From: Acidimicrobiales bacterium
GTDB lineage: Bacteria > Actinomycetota > Acidimicrobiia > Acidimicrobiales > SZUA-35
Assembly (NCBI GenBank): GCA_024638815.1
Contig: JAHEJM010000009.1
Coordinates: forward strand, 12,372 to 70,844
Reading direction: 5' to 3'
Length of the DNA stretch: 58,473 nt
A model generated the notes under the pieces. That model ran no database searches and was not told the DNA's origin. It saw only the letters and a list, made by a program, of their open reading frames with translations. A program made the position numbers and the translations under genes. Position 1 is the first letter of the stretch, and the number at the start of each line of letters is the position of its first letter. Shown one piece after another: positions 4,733 through 45,582 of this stretch.

Positions 4733-6181
4733 TCAGCTCCAGCCGTTCCCGCTCCAGGTCGCCCCGGACCACGTTGCACCGGACCAGGTGGCCCCGCTCC
4801 AGGTGGCCCCGCTCCAGGTGGCCCCGGACCACGTTGCACCGGACCAGGTGGCCCCGCTCCAGGTGGCCCCGCTCCAGGTGGCCCCGGACCACGTCCCGCC
4901 CGACCAGGTGGCCCCGCTCCAGGTGGCCCCGCTCCAGGTGGCCCCGGACCACGTCCCGCCCGACCAGGTGGCGCCGGTTGGGGCGGTGAGGCCGGTCCGG
5001 CGTCCTGCGGCTCGGGAGTGGGACTGGGTGGGCGCTCCGAACTCGACTCGCTCCCAGGAGTCTTCGGCGTCGATGACTCCGTTGCCGATGGCCACGGGGC
5101 CGTAGTCGAGGTCGGTCTCGGCTTCCTCGATGAGGTTGGCCTTGAGCTCGTCGACCGTCATGTCGGGGAAGTGGTCGAGCATTCGGGCCGCCACACCACT
5201 GGTCACAGCAGCAGCTTGCGAGGTGCCCGAGCCGAGGAAGAAGTCGGTGTCGTATCGGGCCAAGGGATTCCCAGCGTCAGCAGTCGATCCGGGCACCCGG
5301 TAGGAGGCGATCGACCGGCCGGGGGCGACGAGGTCAGGGTTGCGGTCGTTGTCGCCCCGGGACGACCAGGCGGTGACGTGCTGATATTCCTCGTTGACGC
5401 CGGTGGTGTCATCGGAGGCGCCGACACTGAACACGTAGGGGTCGATGGCCGGCGAGTCAAGGTGGCCCTGCAATGTGCCCTGGTTGCCGGCGGCGACCAC
5501 AACGAAGATCCCGGCGTCCCACGCCCGCTCGACTGCAGCCGACAGGGGGTCTCCCACATGGTCGCTGACTCCGGCCTGGCCCAGGGACAGGTTCAGGACC
5601 CGTATGTTGAGCCCATTGCTGTTGCGGTGCTCGACAACCCAGTCGATAGCCGCCACGACCTGTGGCACAGTGGTGAGCCCGTCGTGGCCGGCCACCTTCA
5701 CGCTGACGATCCGTGCTCCGGGGGCGATACCCTCGCGACCCGTTCGGGTGCCGGCGATGATGCCGGCCATGTGGGTCCCGTGGCCGTAGGTGTCGAGGTA
5801 GGCGGACTCCTTCGTTGACCCTTCGAACGAGAGATCGGGTCCGTGGAGGACCTTGTCGGATCCGTCGAGCCCATCGACCGGTGCCACGCCGGTGTCGATG
5901 AGGGCGACATCGATACCGGTCCCATCGCTGCTCTGGTCGCCGAATCGCTCCAACACATCGTCGGCCACCTTGTCGAGGTGGATCGGAACGGTCAGGTCGT
6001 CGGCGGCGAGAAACTGGACCGATGACGTGCTCATCAAACCGACCGAGGCCGACTCATCGGATGGGGCGGCGATCGGGGCGATCACTGCGGCCACCAGCAT
6101 CACCGCCGCCAACCATCGAGGGTGTCGGCGGCCGTCTGGCTTGGCTGGCAAGCGGCCGGGCGGGGACATTCGTTTCGGCAT
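4733..6181 (-). CDS. secreted subtilisin-like serine protease (S8) with WSGAT-repeat tail
   Basis: A 482-residue protein. The basic N-terminus plus WLAAVMLVAAVIAPIA (residues 23-38) is a signal peptide or anchor. The catalytic triad is Asp96 (ALIDTG), His134 (YGHGTHMAG) and Ser321 (GSGTSQAAA), with the oxyanion Asn233 in AAGNQG. The catalytic domain ends near residue 385. Residues 403-482 are 16 near-perfect G(A/G)TWS pentapeptides. No separate I9 propeptide is obvious between signal and Asp motif. Start ATG 6181 has GGAG upstream. The gene is monocistronic as far as can be seen; the upstream region 6182-6956 holds no clear partner. Likely an extracellular or surface protease; the substrate is unknown. 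Confidence 0.92.
   Translation of the reverse strand: MPKRMSPPGRLPAKPDGRRHPRWLAAVMLVAAVIAPIAAPSDESASVGLMSTSSVQFLAADDLTVPIHLDKVADDVLERFGDQSSDGTGIDVALIDTGVAPVDGLDGSDKVLHGPDLSFEGSTKESAYLDTYGHGTHMAGIIAGTRTGREGIAPGARIVSVKVAGHDGLTTVPQVVAAIDWVVEHRNSNGLNIRVLNLSLGQAGVSDHVGDPLSAAVERAWDAGIFVVVAAGNQGTLQGHLDSPAIDPYVFSVGASDDTTGVNEEYQHVTAWSSRGDNDRNPDLVAPGRSIASYRVPGSTADAGNPLARYDTDFFLGSGTSQAAAVTSGVAARMLDHFPDMTVDELKANLIEEAETDLDYGPVAIGNGVIDAEDSWERVEFGAPTQSHSRAAGRRTGLTAPTGATWSGGTWSGATWSGATWSGATWSGGTWSGATWSGATWSGATWSGATWSGATWSGATWSGATWSGATWSGATWSGNGWS
4736..4975 (-). repeat. in-frame 15-bp repeats (16 units) organised in 60-bp blocks
   Basis: The 3' end of the protease gene is a tandem array encoding G(A/G)TWS. 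At DNA level the units form higher-order blocks of 60 bp (for example 4781-4840, 4841-4900 and 4901-4960) that are almost identical, which indicates recent block duplication. It lies entirely inside the coding frame and ends with a variant unit GNGWS just before the stop codon. Confidence 0.95.
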
Positions 6182-7204: not shown

Positions 7205-7471
7205 TCAGGCTAGGGCTGCCGTCAACTCCCCAGTGTTTCCGATGATCAGTCTTGCAGCGGCTCCGACCCCCATCTCCTCGGCAACTGCGGCGAAAGTCCT
7301 CAGCGCCCGCCGAACGCCAGGGAGTGCAGCTCGAGATCTCGCTTGCGTTTCAAGGGTCTGCAGATCGGCATCAAGGTCGGACCGTTCCTGATCGTCGAGC
7401 TGATCGAGGTGCAAGGCGCGAACGGCTTCGGCCAACTCAACGAGCAGCTCGCCGTTTGAAGTTGGCTCCAA
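7205..7471 (-). CDS. small helical protein, C-terminal part of a split gene
   Basis: An 88-residue frame beginning at TTG 7471. It is strongly helical and charged (LVELAEAVRALHLDQLDDQ... then VRRALRTFAAVAEEMG) and ends with a hydrophobic helix. This matches the C-terminal part of a common actinobacterial small-protein type in which a short beta segment containing GDGNxQ precedes a helical region. The matching beta segment is present just upstream in a different frame (7437-7535), so the ancestral gene was probably one open frame. Function is unknown. Confidence 0.45.
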   Translation of the reverse strand: MEPTSNGELLVELAEAVRALHLDQLDDQERSDLDADLQTLETQARSRAALPGVRRALRTFAAVAEEMGVGAAARLIIGNTGELTAALA

Positions 7472-7535
7472 CCATCACCCTCTGGGAGTTGCCGTCCCCG
7501 ACGGCGACCTGGGCGGGCCCGTGATATCTGATGGT
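7437..7535 (-). pseudogene. N-terminal beta segment of the same small protein, out of frame and truncated
   Basis: The minus-strand frame reads TIRYHGPAQVAVGDGNSQRV and continues 12 codons past the start of the helical frame before its stop. The AVGDGNSQ piece is typical of the N-terminus of this protein type. No start codon lies between it and the permease remnant that begins at about 7540 on the other strand. Either the 5' end was deleted or a rare start is used. Confidence 0.35.
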
Positions 7536-8474: not shown

Positions 8475-8616
8475 TCTCGGCCGCCGGCCATGTGCTACGG
8501 CGTCGGCGCTCCTGCGACTCGACAGAGGCACACCAGCCACCGGAAACCAAACCCGGCGGGAATCCGCCACCCAAGCCAGGAGACACCACGACGGGCTCGA
8601 CAACACCGAGGCCACC

Positions 8617-8892
8617 ATTACCGTCGACGAACTTGCCGAACTCCTGCTCGAGACCGGCCACCACCATCATCGGGCCTATGTCGAGTCGGATGGCACCGAT
8701 CCCGAGTGGGCGATGTGGTACGCCGGGTACCTGCAGAGCCGGCTGTGGGAACGAGCCGGTTCGCTCCCGTCCCGTAGCCTGCTCGTTCACCTTTTGCTCA
8801 CCGCCCAGACCGACCACGAGGCCAACGGCGGTGACAACCCGTGGCCGCCGCACTATGCGCACGTCATCCTCGCTGCACTCACCAAGGGCTGA
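8617..8892 (+). CDS. small conserved-looking hypothetical protein, start uncertain
   Basis: About 90 residues with a convincing composition: TVDELAELLLETGHHHHRAY, then DGTDPEWAMWYAGYLQSRL and a helical end. The DPxW..WYA..L pattern occurs in small actinobacterial proteins of unknown function. The frame is open far upstream but contains no ATG, GTG or TTG close to the conserved part, so the given start (ATT at 8617) is only a placeholder; the true start may have been lost. It follows the broken permease and sits 7 bases before the end of the opposing selenoprotein gene. Confidence 0.45.
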   Translation: MTVDELAELLLETGHHHHRAYVESDGTDPEWAMWYAGYLQSRLWERAGSLPSRSLLVHLLLTAQTDHEANGGDNPWPPHYAHVILAALTKG

Positions 8893-8899
8893 ATGCGGG

Positions 8900-9859
8900 T
8901 CAGCCCCTGCCGCCCTCTTCGGGCGAGAGACCGAGGTGGGGGCCGAGTTCCCACATGGAGGCCGGAACCGGGACCCCGGTGGCGTCGAGGATGCGGTTCA
9001 TCATCTCGAAGTTGCCGGCGGCTGCGGCGGCCGGAGCCAGCGCCCGGCCGCCCATGACGTCGGCCACCGACCTCCTCGCCGAGTCCAGGTCGTCGGTCCG
9101 GCCGACGAGAGCGTCGGTGAAAGCCAGCAGGGCGGCCGCATCGTCGCGGCCAACTGCCCGGCGACGATCGCCGATCGCCCGAGGGTCGATGTCGATCTGG
9201 TTGACCTGGGCGCTCGCACGGAGCATGCCGCCGTGGGCGAACAGTCAGAAGAAGCAGCGATTGATCAGTGACGTCCTGGCCGCCACCAGCTCGAGTTGCC
9301 AGCGAGGCAGGCCCTTGACGATCCGGAGGTCGGCCATCTCGGCGTAGCTGAGGTAGAGCGCCCCATGGAGATCGGCCTGGGCGGCATCCTCGCCCGGCAC
9401 CGCCGACAGCGCCGTTGTCGGCCCTGCGGGACCGACGGTTGCGACGTAAGCCGATCGCCGTTTCGCCCCACGACTCACTTGGCCGGTCGGCCGATGCTCG
9501 TCGGTTGCGACGAGTTCGGGCGCCGGGCGACCGATCCCGCGGCAGAACGTGTCGATCGCCGTGGTGCGGGCCACCACACCGACGACTTCGACGAAGGCGG
9601 CCGGCTCACCGAAGACGCCAACATCGTCAACGGTCACGTGGTGGGCCTCGGTTGCGACCCGGGCTGCCACGGCCGACACGGGTTCGGTGATGACGGCGTG
9701 AGCTCCGTCCGTCGAGGCGGTGAAGGCACGGCGAGCCGACTCGGCGATCGCCACCCGTTCGGCAGCCGTCCACCATGTCCCCACCGATCCGATGTTGTCG
9801 ACGGCCCGGATCACGCCGGCCTCGGTATGCGGTGGGACGGTCAACTCGGTACCGGTCAT
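8900..9859 (-). CDS. AhpD/CMD-family protein, probable selenoprotein (in-frame TGA at 9245-9247)
   Basis: Read through one TGA, this is a 319-residue protein. Residues about 17-70 have WWTAAERVAIAESARRAF, then DVGVFGEPAAFVEVVGVVA, and the end of the first part is LELVAARTSLINRCFF. The TGA follows directly, giving C202-F-F-U205, and the same frame continues LFAHGGMLRASAQ. AhpD/carboxymuconolactone decarboxylase proteins carry a redox C-x-x-C (or C-x-x-U) here followed by a conserved His, matching both sides of the TGA. A hairpin with a G in its loop follows at the spacing of bacterial SECIS elements. Start ATG 9859 has GAGGAG upstream and lies 26 bases after the redoxin fragment. A selD fragment lies 2 kb away. 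The alternative is a nonsense mutation in a decaying gene. Confidence 0.72.
9217..9235 (-). promoter_or_regulatory. candidate bacterial SECIS hairpin after the in-frame TGA
   Basis: On the minus strand, starting 10 bases after the TGA, CACGG pairs with CCGTG across a 9-base loop CGGCATGCT. The apical loop begins about 15 bases from the TGA and has G in its second position. The bacterial SECIS model calls for a short stem whose loop starts with G within its first two bases at about 16-37 bases, so this is close to the model. It also codes for the conserved HGGMLR segment. Confidence 0.5.
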
Positions 9860-9885
9860 CTGGTTCGGGTCTCTCCTCGGTGGAC

Positions 9886-10168
9886 TCAGCGGGACAGTTG
9901 TCCGACGATTGCGGTGGCGGTGTCGGGGTCGATCTGGAATCCGTCGAAACAGACCCGGCGCTCGGGGCCGATGATGACCGTCCACGGAGTCCCCCCGGTG
10001 CGATAGTTGCGCATGATATCGGGGGGGCTGCCGTCCCGGCCCGGATCGTGACCGACGGCAAGATCGCTCAGGCCGTGTTGGGCCACCGATGCCAGCGCCC
10101 TCTCGGCGGTGTTCACATCGTGCCCTCGAAAACGGTCTGCACGACGACGAAGGTGACGTCGTCCATGC
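9886..10168 (-). pseudogene. redoxin (thioredoxin-fold) C-terminal fragment with frameshift
   Basis: The frame DDVTFVVVQTVFEG ends at a premature stop. One base inserted at the run 10123-10125 joins it to HDVNTAERALASVAQHG, then YRTGGTPWTVIIGPERRV and the end at 9886. This is the C-terminal half of a redoxin with the cis-Pro motif TPW; in family members the N-terminal half carries the catalytic Cys. That half is absent: on the other strand the mycothione reductase fragment begins at the same place. The fragment precedes the selenoprotein gene by 26 bases, as in an operon of two thiol-redox proteins. Confidence 0.7.
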
Positions 10169-11199
10169 CGGTGCGATGCCTGACCGCCGGCACCGGCAAC
10201 GCCATCATCAACCGCGACTTCGACCACTGGCGCGTGGCGATCGTGGAGCAGGCCGTCTTCGGCGGTACCTGCCTCAATCGTGGGTGCATTCCGTCGAAGA
10301 TGTTCGTCCACACCGCCGACATCGCCGAGACGGTTCGTCGAGCCGGTGCGTTCGGGGTGGACGCCCACCTCGACGGCGCCCGCTGGCCGGATGTGCGAGA
10401 CAGGGTGTTCGGGCGGATCGACCCGCTCGGGCCGGAGAGCGTCGTCAATCGGCAGGCGCAGGCGAACATCGACGTCCACGCCGGCGCGGCCGAGTTCGTC
10501 GACGAGCACACTCTCGCAGTCGACGGGTCGGAGATACGTGGCCACCGGTTCGTCCTCGCTGCGGGCGCTCGCCCGTTTGTCCCGCCGATCGAGGGCCTCG
10601 ACGGGGTCCCTTACCACACCAGCGCAACGATCATGCGCCTCGACCGGCTCCCCGAGCACCTGATCATCATCGGCGGTGGCTTCGTGGCGTCCGAGATGGC
10701 TCACGTCTTCGGAGGTCTCGGCTCGCGGGTTTCGATGGTGGCTCGAGGCGATCGCCTGCTGCTCCACGAGGACGGTGAGGTTTCGGCCCGGTTCACCGAG
10801 CTCTATCGGAAACGCATGGACGTTCACCTCCACAGCACCGTGGCCGGGGTCTCCGAAGTCGATGACGGCCTGCGAGTCGAGGTGCTGGTCGAGGACAGGA
10901 TCGTCGATCTGGTCGGGGACACCCTGCTCGTGGCCACCGGCCGGGTCCCGAACGCCGATCTGCTGAACGTGGCCGCCGCCGGCGTGACGACAGACGAACT
11001 CGGTTTCGTCACCACCGACGAGCAGCTGCGCACCAACGTCGACCACATCTGGGCCATCGGGGATATGACCAATCGAATCCAGCTCAAGCACTACGCCAAT
11101 GCCCAGCTCCCGGCGATCCGACACAACATTCTCCACCCGGACGCGCCCGTCGAGGTCACGCCCCGTCACATCCCCCACGCCGTCTTCGCCGATCCGCAA
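10165..11199 (+). pseudogene. mtr: mycothione reductase, C-terminus missing
   Basis: A pyridine nucleotide-disulphide oxidoreductase that would reduce mycothiol disulphide with NADPH and FAD. Redox-active Cys36 and Cys41 are in GGTCLNRGCIPSK, the NADPH-binding GGGFVASEMAHVF is present, and the FAD motif is at IWAIGDMTN. It follows M. tuberculosis Mtr closely until RHIPHAVFADPQ (about residue 345 of a family length near 460). There the homology stops and SelD sequence begins in another frame. The whole dimerisation domain, including the C-terminal His-Glu pair that completes the active site, is lost. The N-terminal dozen residues also fit poorly, so the 5' end may be cut. It is unlikely to be functional. 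Confidence 0.8.
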
Positions 11200-11201
11200 G
11201 A

Positions 11202-11759
11202 CGCGTCGCCGCCGCCAACTCGGTCTCGGACGTCTACGCCATGGGCGGCCAACCCCTCTTCGCCCTCAACCTTGTGGGGTGGAACACCTCGGAGCTTTCC
11301 TCCGACCTCCTCGCCGAAGTGCTCCTCGGAGCACAGTACGTTGCGGTCGAAGGCGGATTCGTCATCGCAGGCGGACACACCGTGGACGACCCCGAACCGA
11401 AGTTCGGGCTGGCAGTGGTCGGTGAGGCCCATCCGGACCGACTGATCACCAACGCCGGGCTTCGAGCCGGTCAGAGCCTGGTCCTCACCAAGCCATTGGG
11501 AGTCGGCGTCATCACCACTGCGGTCAAGCGGGGTCAGGCCGACCTAGCGGCATTGGACGCCACCGTTGCCGCCATGACGATGCTCAACGCCGATGCGAGC
11601 CGGATCGCGCTCGCTGCGGGCGCCACCGGTGGGACCGACGTCACCGGATTCGGACTCGCCGGCCATCTGGGTCGGGCTGCAATCGAGTCCGAGGTTGACG
11701 TGGCACTGGAGGTCGACCGCCTCCCCACGAAGGGGTCAGGTCGAATGTACCTGCGGTGA
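11202..11759 (+). pseudogene. selD: selenide, water dikinase (SelD) internal fragment
   Basis: The frame reads VAAANSVSDVYAMGGQPLFA directly after the mycothione reductase fragment, then FVIAGGHTVDDPEPKFGLAV, GQSLVLTKPLGVGVITT and GGTDVTGFGLAGHLG. These are central PurM-like blocks of SelD, which makes selenophosphate for Sec-tRNA synthesis. The N-terminal segment with the catalytic Cys/Sec and Lys is missing, and the C-terminus stops after VDRLPTKGSG, well before the usual end. An internal ATG at 11241 does not restore the active site. It is therefore a fragment; a full selD would have to exist elsewhere for the nearby TGA to be decoded. Confidence 0.82.
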
Positions 11760-44729: not shown

Positions 44730-45443
44730 TCAGAACAGTCGGGACGACAGCTTCCTGCGCCAGTCGGCGGCCGCATCAGGATTGCCCACCGAGAGTTCGT
44801 CGAGCAAACCCAAGAACCTGGTTCTGGCCTCGTCATCGGCCTTCACCTTGTCCAGGAGTTCGCCCAATTCGTTCTCCACCGCCGCCTGCTCATCCGACGG
44901 CATGGCGGCATTGCGGGCCATCTCGAGCAGGGGCGTGAGCTGGTCGTCGTCGGGGCCGGCCTCCAGAACCTGCAACGCCTCGGCGGCACGGTCCTGGGAC
45001 AGCAGCAGGGAGGCCAGTGAACCCACTGCGGCAACGCTGGTGCCGTCCAGCTCGACGGCTCGTCGAAGCGAGGCCTCGTCCCCCTGTTGGATCAGAGCGA
45101 CAACCTCGGCGTCCACGTCGTCACCGATGAGTTTGTTGACGAACTCCCGTACGGCGTGCTCGGGCTGAGCGCCCATGAACCCATCGACCACTTGGCCGCC
45201 CTTGATGGCGTAGACGGCGGGAATCGATTGGACCCGGAACGCAGCCGAGGCCCCCGGATTCTCGTCGACGTTGATCTTGGCCAGCACGACCTTGCCGCTG
45301 GTTTCGTTGACGACCTTTTCCAGGAGTGGGCCGAGCGTCTTGCACGGGCCGCACCAGGGAGCCCACAAGTCGACGACCACCGGGGTTGCCATCGACCGCT
45401 GCATCACCTCGGACTCGAACGTGGCGTCTTGTACGTCAATCAT
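44730..45443 (-). CDS. thioredoxin-TPR protein (CnoX/YbbN type)
   Basis: About 237 residues. The N-terminal thioredoxin fold keeps a full active site, PVVVDLWAPWCGPCKTLGPL, and the cis-Pro in VQSIPAVYAIKGG. The C-terminal 120 residues are TPR-like helices (LIQQGDEASLRRAVELDG, LLEMARNAAMPSDEQ). E. coli YbbN/CnoX links DnaK or GroEL with redox protection, but has an altered motif; here WCGPC is intact, so disulphide exchange is likely. Three starts are possible: GTG 45455, ATG 45446 and ATG 45443. I use 45443 because GAAGG lies five bases before it. Confidence 0.9.
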   Translation of the reverse strand: MIDVQDATFESEVMQRSMATPVVVDLWAPWCGPCKTLGPLLEKVVNETSGKVVLAKINVDENPGASAAFRVQSIPAVYAIKGGQVVDGFMGAQPEHAVREFVNKLIGDDVDAEVVALIQQGDEASLRRAVELDGTSVAAVGSLASLLLSQDRAAEALQVLEAGPDDDQLTPLLEMARNAAMPSDEQAAVENELGELLDKVKADDEARTRFLGLLDELSVGNPDAAADWRRKLSSRLF

Positions 45444-45582
45444 CATCGCCTTCACGCTACCGGCGACGGGGCACTATTCTGATGCTCGACCATACTCGGA
45501 ACGTCCGATCGAAAGAGGCGACCGATCCACAAGGGGTGGCGGAGCCGTACCATGGGGCGCCGAGCGTCCAACAGGGGCTCAC

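Follow-up and report, generated by a model that had tools for sequence, protein, structure and literature searches.

Selenoproteins with a CxxU redox motif have been described in several families of the AhpD/CMD type. In the Sargasso Sea study (PMC1088965), the passages on 'hypothetical protein 1' describe a CXXU motif and count four Sec-containing and seven Cys-containing sequences in the Sargasso data, compared with no Sec-containing and five Cys-containing sequences in complete genomes; stem-loops resembling bacterial SECIS elements are reported there for all new families of the study. A 2026 review (PMC13188914), in its relevant passages, lists the NCBIfam family NF041238 as a CxxU selenoprotein, equates it with 'hypothetical protein 1' and lists AhpD-like and CMD-like proteins separately. 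The family bears the name AhpD_rel_CFYUT, alkylhydroperoxidase-related (seleno)protein; the literature passages that deal with it name neither a substrate nor a reductant. AhpD-like 1 and AhpD-like 2 of the Global Ocean Sampling are also presented as CxxU selenoproteins of the AhpD/CMD type, filed under COG2128 and pfam02627, in the passages on them (PMC2398784). A literature search that combined selenoprotein with Acidimicrob retrieved nothing on the subject, as judged by the titles.

The gene described here lies on the minus strand of a 58,473-nucleotide stretch (the window) of contig JAHEJM010000009.1 from an Acidimicrobiales bacterium (GCA_024638815.1). Its frame begins with the ATG at 9859 and runs to the TGA at 8900-8902, interrupted by a single TGA at 9245-9247, as the initial annotation had claimed. 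Translation of 8900-9859 (minus strand) yields a protein of 319 residues including Sec205, in which the internal TGA forms the U of the C-x-x-U motif C202-F-F-U205-L-F-A-H209. The motif, with the conserved His behind it, aligns with that of AhpD in a profile comparison, in agreement with the earlier assignment of the TGA to the redox motif of AhpD/CMD proteins. A six-frame scan of the window for TGA codons preceded by at least 40 and followed by at least 30 open codons, with GC3 clearly higher than GC2 in both flanks, was passed by four sites, among which C-x-x-U occurs only at 9245-9247. The site at 45018 (plus strand), a U-x-x-C in a long open frame, was rejected as an opposite-strand artefact, antisense to the thioredoxin-like ORF 44730-45455 (minus strand). 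The two others, 24698 (minus strand) and 30872 (plus strand), lack a Cys next to the TGA.

Against NF041238 the read-through protein reaches 197.3 bits, above the curated whole-protein cut-off of 175, with residues 13-302 aligned to positions 6-339 of the 357-position model, and it shares with the family the CxxU motif with a TGA-encoded Sec. Its motif reads CFFUL, unlike the CFYUT of the family name. Each of the 41 aligned members is matched by the model at E <= 0.001, and ten of them, scanned singly, all reach the cut-off, two of them barely (175.4). In contrast to AhpD-like 1 and 2, the protein stays below the gathering score of Pfam CMD (PF02627; 18.9 vs 23 bits). As the review and the Sargasso study had already made this kind of selenoprotein known, the window gene is a new member of a family whose Sec had been recognized before. 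The initial annotation spoke of an undeclared selenoprotein; with NF041238 already described, this applies at most to the gene 8900-9859 and does not hold for the family.

With translation table 11 the locus is split, as had been foreseen, into ORFs at 9245-9985 (246 aa, starting with a GTG further upstream) and 8900-9226 (108 aa). Taken at face value, these ORFs would represent two separate genes, one for a short protein that ends at the TGA and one for an independent 108-residue protein that starts from 9226. Such a division would cut through an E-x11-C-x-x-U-x3-H site shared without change by all 41 aligned sequences. Neither piece alone has a Pfam match at E <= 1, whereas the read-through product matches a single NCBIfam model across the TGA and is predicted with high confidence to fold as a single, almost wholly helical protein (AlphaFold mean pLDDT 95.4). 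Two independent genes are therefore extremely improbable.

The TGA codon in homologues and the selenocysteine machinery

The TGA was taken for a probable selenocysteine codon in the initial annotation, and the corresponding column in homologues agrees with this assignment. In a profile search that did not prejudge the residue, TGA occupied the site in 50 of 50 motif-bearing rows, 46 after removal of duplicates; eight further rows were partial second stretches or an end piece devoid of the motif. Among 99 genomes, including that of the window, 57 matches were obtained at E <= 1e-10, of which 55 contain an in-frame TGA, one of them two; the position of the TGA was verified in those of the 55 that were extracted as loci. 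The two exceptions are a fragment that extends only to residue 169 and a remnant (G020:C72:108333-108751, L081) that breaks off before the motif. The latter had seemed to be a match across residue 205 with a codon other than TGA, and it was discarded as a decayed remnant, the homology ending at Asn200. The 296 genomes of the phylum contributed six matches above the NF041238 cut-off, each with one TGA, and all 20 loci from the named genome collection carry the TGA; the plasmid collection yielded no match. No Cys form was found among the close matches in the 99 genomes or the 296 phylum genomes, in searches that did not select for TGA. Weaker matches that lack the TGA, with E above 1e-9, roughly 30% identity and coverage of the C-terminal domain only, were taken for ordinary CMD proteins.

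Altogether the same TGA is present in 46 other loci, down to 26% protein identity. The locus set used below, to which L062 was added by pattern, comprises 48 loci including the window, after duplicates of the window, L046 and L049 (L016, L017 and L018, respectively) had been removed. One duplicate (L052, of L022) is still contained in the loop and SECIS-model counts and was dropped from the codon count onward, which leaves 47 loci. The alignment holds 41 of the 47 (L039, L043, L044, L046, L063 and L065 are left out), and L066-L077 are outside the alignment, hairpin and tree sets. The loci for the hairpin and codon counts were chosen by a regular expression requiring U at the site, so that the profile search provides the unselected view. 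All 41 rows of the alignment share E91, E190, C202, residue 205, H209 and L213 without variation.

Ratios of non-synonymous to synonymous changes (dN/dS) were determined by the Nei-Gojobori method, separately before and after the TGA, for the window gene against single relatives. Against L046 (98% identical) the ratio is 0.21 before the TGA and 0 after it, with no non-synonymous and three synonymous changes in the latter part. Against L047 (77% identical) the values are 0.23 and 0.32, followed by L048 (0.45 and 0.37), L049 (0.34 and 0.21) and L050 (0.41 and 0.50). By these comparisons selection is purifying both before and after the TGA at 9245-9247.

The genome contains selA (394.8 bits) and selB (266.7 bits) side by side, both above the cut-off, a tRNA-Sec gene (selC; 66.5 bits, cut-off 47) with the anticodon TCA, and, on another contig, a full selD (357.4 bits), which itself contains Sec, encoded by a TGA before A-C-K-L. 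The full set expected of a selenoprotein-encoding genome is thus found together with the gene, and a second NF041238 member with TGA is located on contig 30 of the same genome (311.2 bits). Across the relatives, tRNA-Sec was detected in 31 of 37 genomes with a TGA homologue (a TGA-bearing match at E <= 1.1e-8) vs 36 of 62 genomes without one (one-sided Fisher p 0.0065). This link is only weak to moderate because Sec decoding is common in these organisms (tRNA-Sec in 67 of the 99 genomes). Five of the six homologue genomes in which no tRNA-Sec was detected are less than 90% complete, and the tRNA-Sec search across the relatives used stricter filters.

A genome-wide change of the code, by which TGA would be read as tryptophan or another residue, would also keep the frame open, but nothing was found in its favour. 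TGA serves as an ordinary stop next door, at the end of the selenoprotein gene itself (8900-8902) and of the adjoining redoxin frame (9886-9888), which makes a code change vanishingly unlikely. Moreover, the TGA column coincides with the second Cys of the AhpD motif (C-x-x-C) in relatives of solved structure (6k40, 2pfx), and tRNA-Sec with the anticodon TCA together with selA and selB argues for decoding as selenocysteine.

The hairpin downstream of the UGA

A predicted apical SECIS hairpin extends over 9211-9225 (minus strand); its 5-bp stem UGCUC/GAGCG (9211-9215/9221-9225) encloses the loop CGUGC (9216-9220), 24 nt after the UGA. The initial annotation had noted a small hairpin with a G in the loop at near-SECIS spacing, and this hairpin is a conserved form that fits the published bacterial model. 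A five-base loop NGUNN is found at the fixed distance of 24 nt in 47 of 48 loci (46 distinct sequences). The ninth codon after the UGA, which forms the loop, is CGT in 34, GGT in 8, AGT in 4 and CGG in 1 of the 47 loci, so that the codon for Arg, Gly or Ser ends in GT in 46 of 47, whatever the amino acid. Arg at this position is encoded by CGT in 34 of 35 cases, compared with 112 of 1014 (11%) elsewhere in the same genes (binomial p 9e-32, the sequences not being independent of each other). A GU that stays fixed while the amino acid changes, and the bias to CGT, are as expected of a SECIS element.

For a consensus stem of eight pairs, 81.5% of the alignment cells are paired vs 75.1% in shuffled alignments and 31-51% in versions slid along the sequence; the covariation score is 0.205 vs 0.142 in shuffles and 0.041-0.180 in slid versions. 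For both measures none of 500 shuffles reached the observed value and all six slid versions were lower. Pairs changed on both sides number five vs 1.9 in shuffles, with five also at slide -1, and doubly changed cells number 12 vs 25, 26, 16 and 19 at slides -2, -1, +1 and +3. As two of the five stem measures thus fail to surpass the slid controls, the counts of doubly changed pairs and cells carry no weight. RNAalifold recovered the inner five pairs, with a small covariation term of -0.23 in a total of -4.71 kcal/mol.

The window sequence forms five of the eight consensus pairs. Taken alone, its apical stem is weak (-4.2 kcal/mol), and the fold of lowest energy without constraints is a different hairpin of -16.9 kcal/mol vs -13.9 kcal/mol with the conserved stem enforced. 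The conserved hairpin is therefore not simply the lowest-energy structure of the window sequence, the other hairpin being about 3 kcal/mol better, and the case for a SECIS element rests on conservation and codon choice. The bacterial SECIS model, as quoted in the review (PMC13188914), demands a loop of 3-9 nt, an upper stem of 4-16 bp, a G in the first two loop positions, a spacing of 16-37 nt and a minimum free energy of <= -7.5. With a 5-nt loop, G in second position, 5 bp, 24 nt and -13.9 kcal/mol (stem enforced, over 57 nt), the window sequence conforms to this model, as do 42 of the 48 loci, the window included, in all points. Constrained energies are unreliable where the enforced stem contains mismatches, as in L032, L036 and L057, for which they are lower than the unconstrained minimum; the stem test by itself already excludes these three loci.

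Active site and proposed reaction

In AhpD, Cys133 attacks the peroxide, Cys130 is the resolving residue, and Glu118 and His137 form a proton relay; the inner His of the motif is His132. For the read-through protein, both the profile search and the fold search of the PDB lead to peroxidase-related proteins of the AhpD/CMD type; those found by profile align with the C-terminal half. The sequence-profile matches reach E 1.3e-15, and the E-values of Foldseek are weak (best 0.041, none <= 0.001). By profile and fold comparison the C-terminal half is of the AhpD type and resembles the CMD proteins 6k40, 2pfx, 3c1l, 2prr and 2oyo. The active-site segment aligns with that of Mycobacterium tuberculosis AhpD (1gu9, 1knc) in a weak profile match to 1gu9 (E 0.0033), in which profile positions 186-224, position 207 being C202, lie on residues 109-147. 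If these segments of equal length are taken as gap-free, E190, C202, U205 and H209 fall on residues 118, 130, 133 and 137 of 1gu9. The AhpD/CMD active-site set of Glu, C-x-x-C/U and His is thus recovered in the 1gu9 match, in the alignments to 6k40 and 2pfx, and in the invariant columns. The window protein differs from AhpD/CMD proteins by Sec in place of the second Cys, by Phe in place of the inner His of the AhpD motif, and by an additional N-terminal helical part of about 150 residues, which has no Pfam match at E <= 1.

We assign a probability of about 0.96 to the reading that the gene product is an AhpD-related thiol/selenol oxidoreductase of the NF041238 family and that the UGA is read as selenocysteine by means of SelB and the downstream hairpin. 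Judging from the conservation of the site and the machinery in the genome, SelB, Sec-tRNA and the hairpin 24 nt downstream would together decode the UGA. By analogy to AhpD, Sec205 in place of Cys133 would attack the peroxide, Cys202 in place of Cys130 would resolve the intermediate, and Glu190 and His209 in place of Glu118 and His137 would relay protons. The likely reaction is the reduction of a peroxide or a related oxidant through a Cys-Sec selenenylsulfide, which would presumably be reduced again by a thioredoxin-like partner.

The neighbouring genes and the place of the protein in its family

Directly upstream of the selenoprotein gene and in the same direction lies a C-terminal remnant of a redoxin/thioredoxin-like gene (9889-10131, minus strand, or 9889-10205 for the redoxin-like region as a whole). 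The redoxin-like copy in L047 (L047:1249-1731) carries a W-C-P-G-C motif, and the gene scores below the cut-offs of both Pfam AhpC-TSA and Redoxin. Residues 1-54 of the L047 protein, which hold the motif, were searched for in the genomes of the window and of L046 and were not found. Head-to-head with the redoxin remnant is a fragment resembling mycothione reductase (mtr; 10177-11199, plus strand; about positions 8-350 of 452 of TIGR03452), which lacks a normal start and the C-terminus. It is joined out of frame, across 10177-11753 (plus strand), to a selD fragment at about 11217-11753 (plus strand; HMM positions 78-262 of 311), in which the N-terminal part is missing, as are about 240 bases close to the end. 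The presence of selD sequences near the gene had been noted in the initial annotation and is correct, but the fragment is a truncated second copy and no evidence in itself. Compared with L046, which has a second selD copy devoid of these gaps, the window is shorter by about 570 bases around 11200 and by about 240 around 11725, by which mtr and the second selD are truncated; the missing bases may reflect true deletions or errors of assembly. Conversely, about 230 bases at 7248-7477 of the window are absent from the otherwise colinear L046.

Two other genes of the vicinity may be mentioned. A small conserved gene of about 98 aa is convergent with the selenoprotein gene in the window (8599-8886, plus strand), in L046 (L046:5344-5637) and in L047 (L047:2751-3026); its product starts with MSDNTA in L046 and L047 and has no Pfam match at E <= 0.01. 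The ORF 4733-6181 (minus strand) appears by eye to be subtilisin-like, with a C-terminus formed by a long run of repeated units, GATWSG among them.

Truncation of the redoxin gene, mtr and the selD copy indicates that the locus is partly decayed, and this would suit a pseudogene in which the TGA is a nonsense mutation of a decaying AhpD-like gene. However, a nonsense mutation would hardly recur at the same codon in loci as distant as those described above, nor would dN/dS remain low behind it. The TGA shared among the loci and the selection downstream of it make a pseudogene very unlikely, and the conserved hairpin with its codon choice and the full Sec machinery of the genome likewise oppose it. 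The gene at 8900-9859 (minus strand) is most likely a genuine selenoprotein gene that encodes one whole redox enzyme despite the stop codon.

In a tree of 46 proteins (the partial L044 was left out), a clade of 26 rows with Leu or Met after Sec is separated from 20 rows with Thr, Ala or Ser by support values of 98/92. The window protein groups with L046 and L047 inside the L/M clade, all named rows of which belong to the Actinomycetota; the closest row, L046, carries the label uncultured Acidimicrobiaceae. By its sequence the protein accordingly belongs to a CxxU-L/M clade that stands next to the CFYUT type of the family name. It is conceivable, though rather unlikely, that this clade is an obligate selenoprotein group the chemistry of which needs selenium, with the co-encoded redoxin as a dedicated reductant that has been lost here. 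The redoxin is intact in L047, and no Cys form was met in the 99 genomes, even in those with no detected tRNA-Sec, from which a need for selenium would follow under the obligate reading; against it count the Cys homologues published for the wider family (seven from the Sargasso Sea, five from genomes, in the passages cited above).

For this lineage the finding means that plain gene calling with table 11 would miss a conserved enzyme's active site. The family is, in addition, a clean case of a SECIS element written into the coding sequence, the ninth codon after the UGA ending in GT in 46 of 47 loci.
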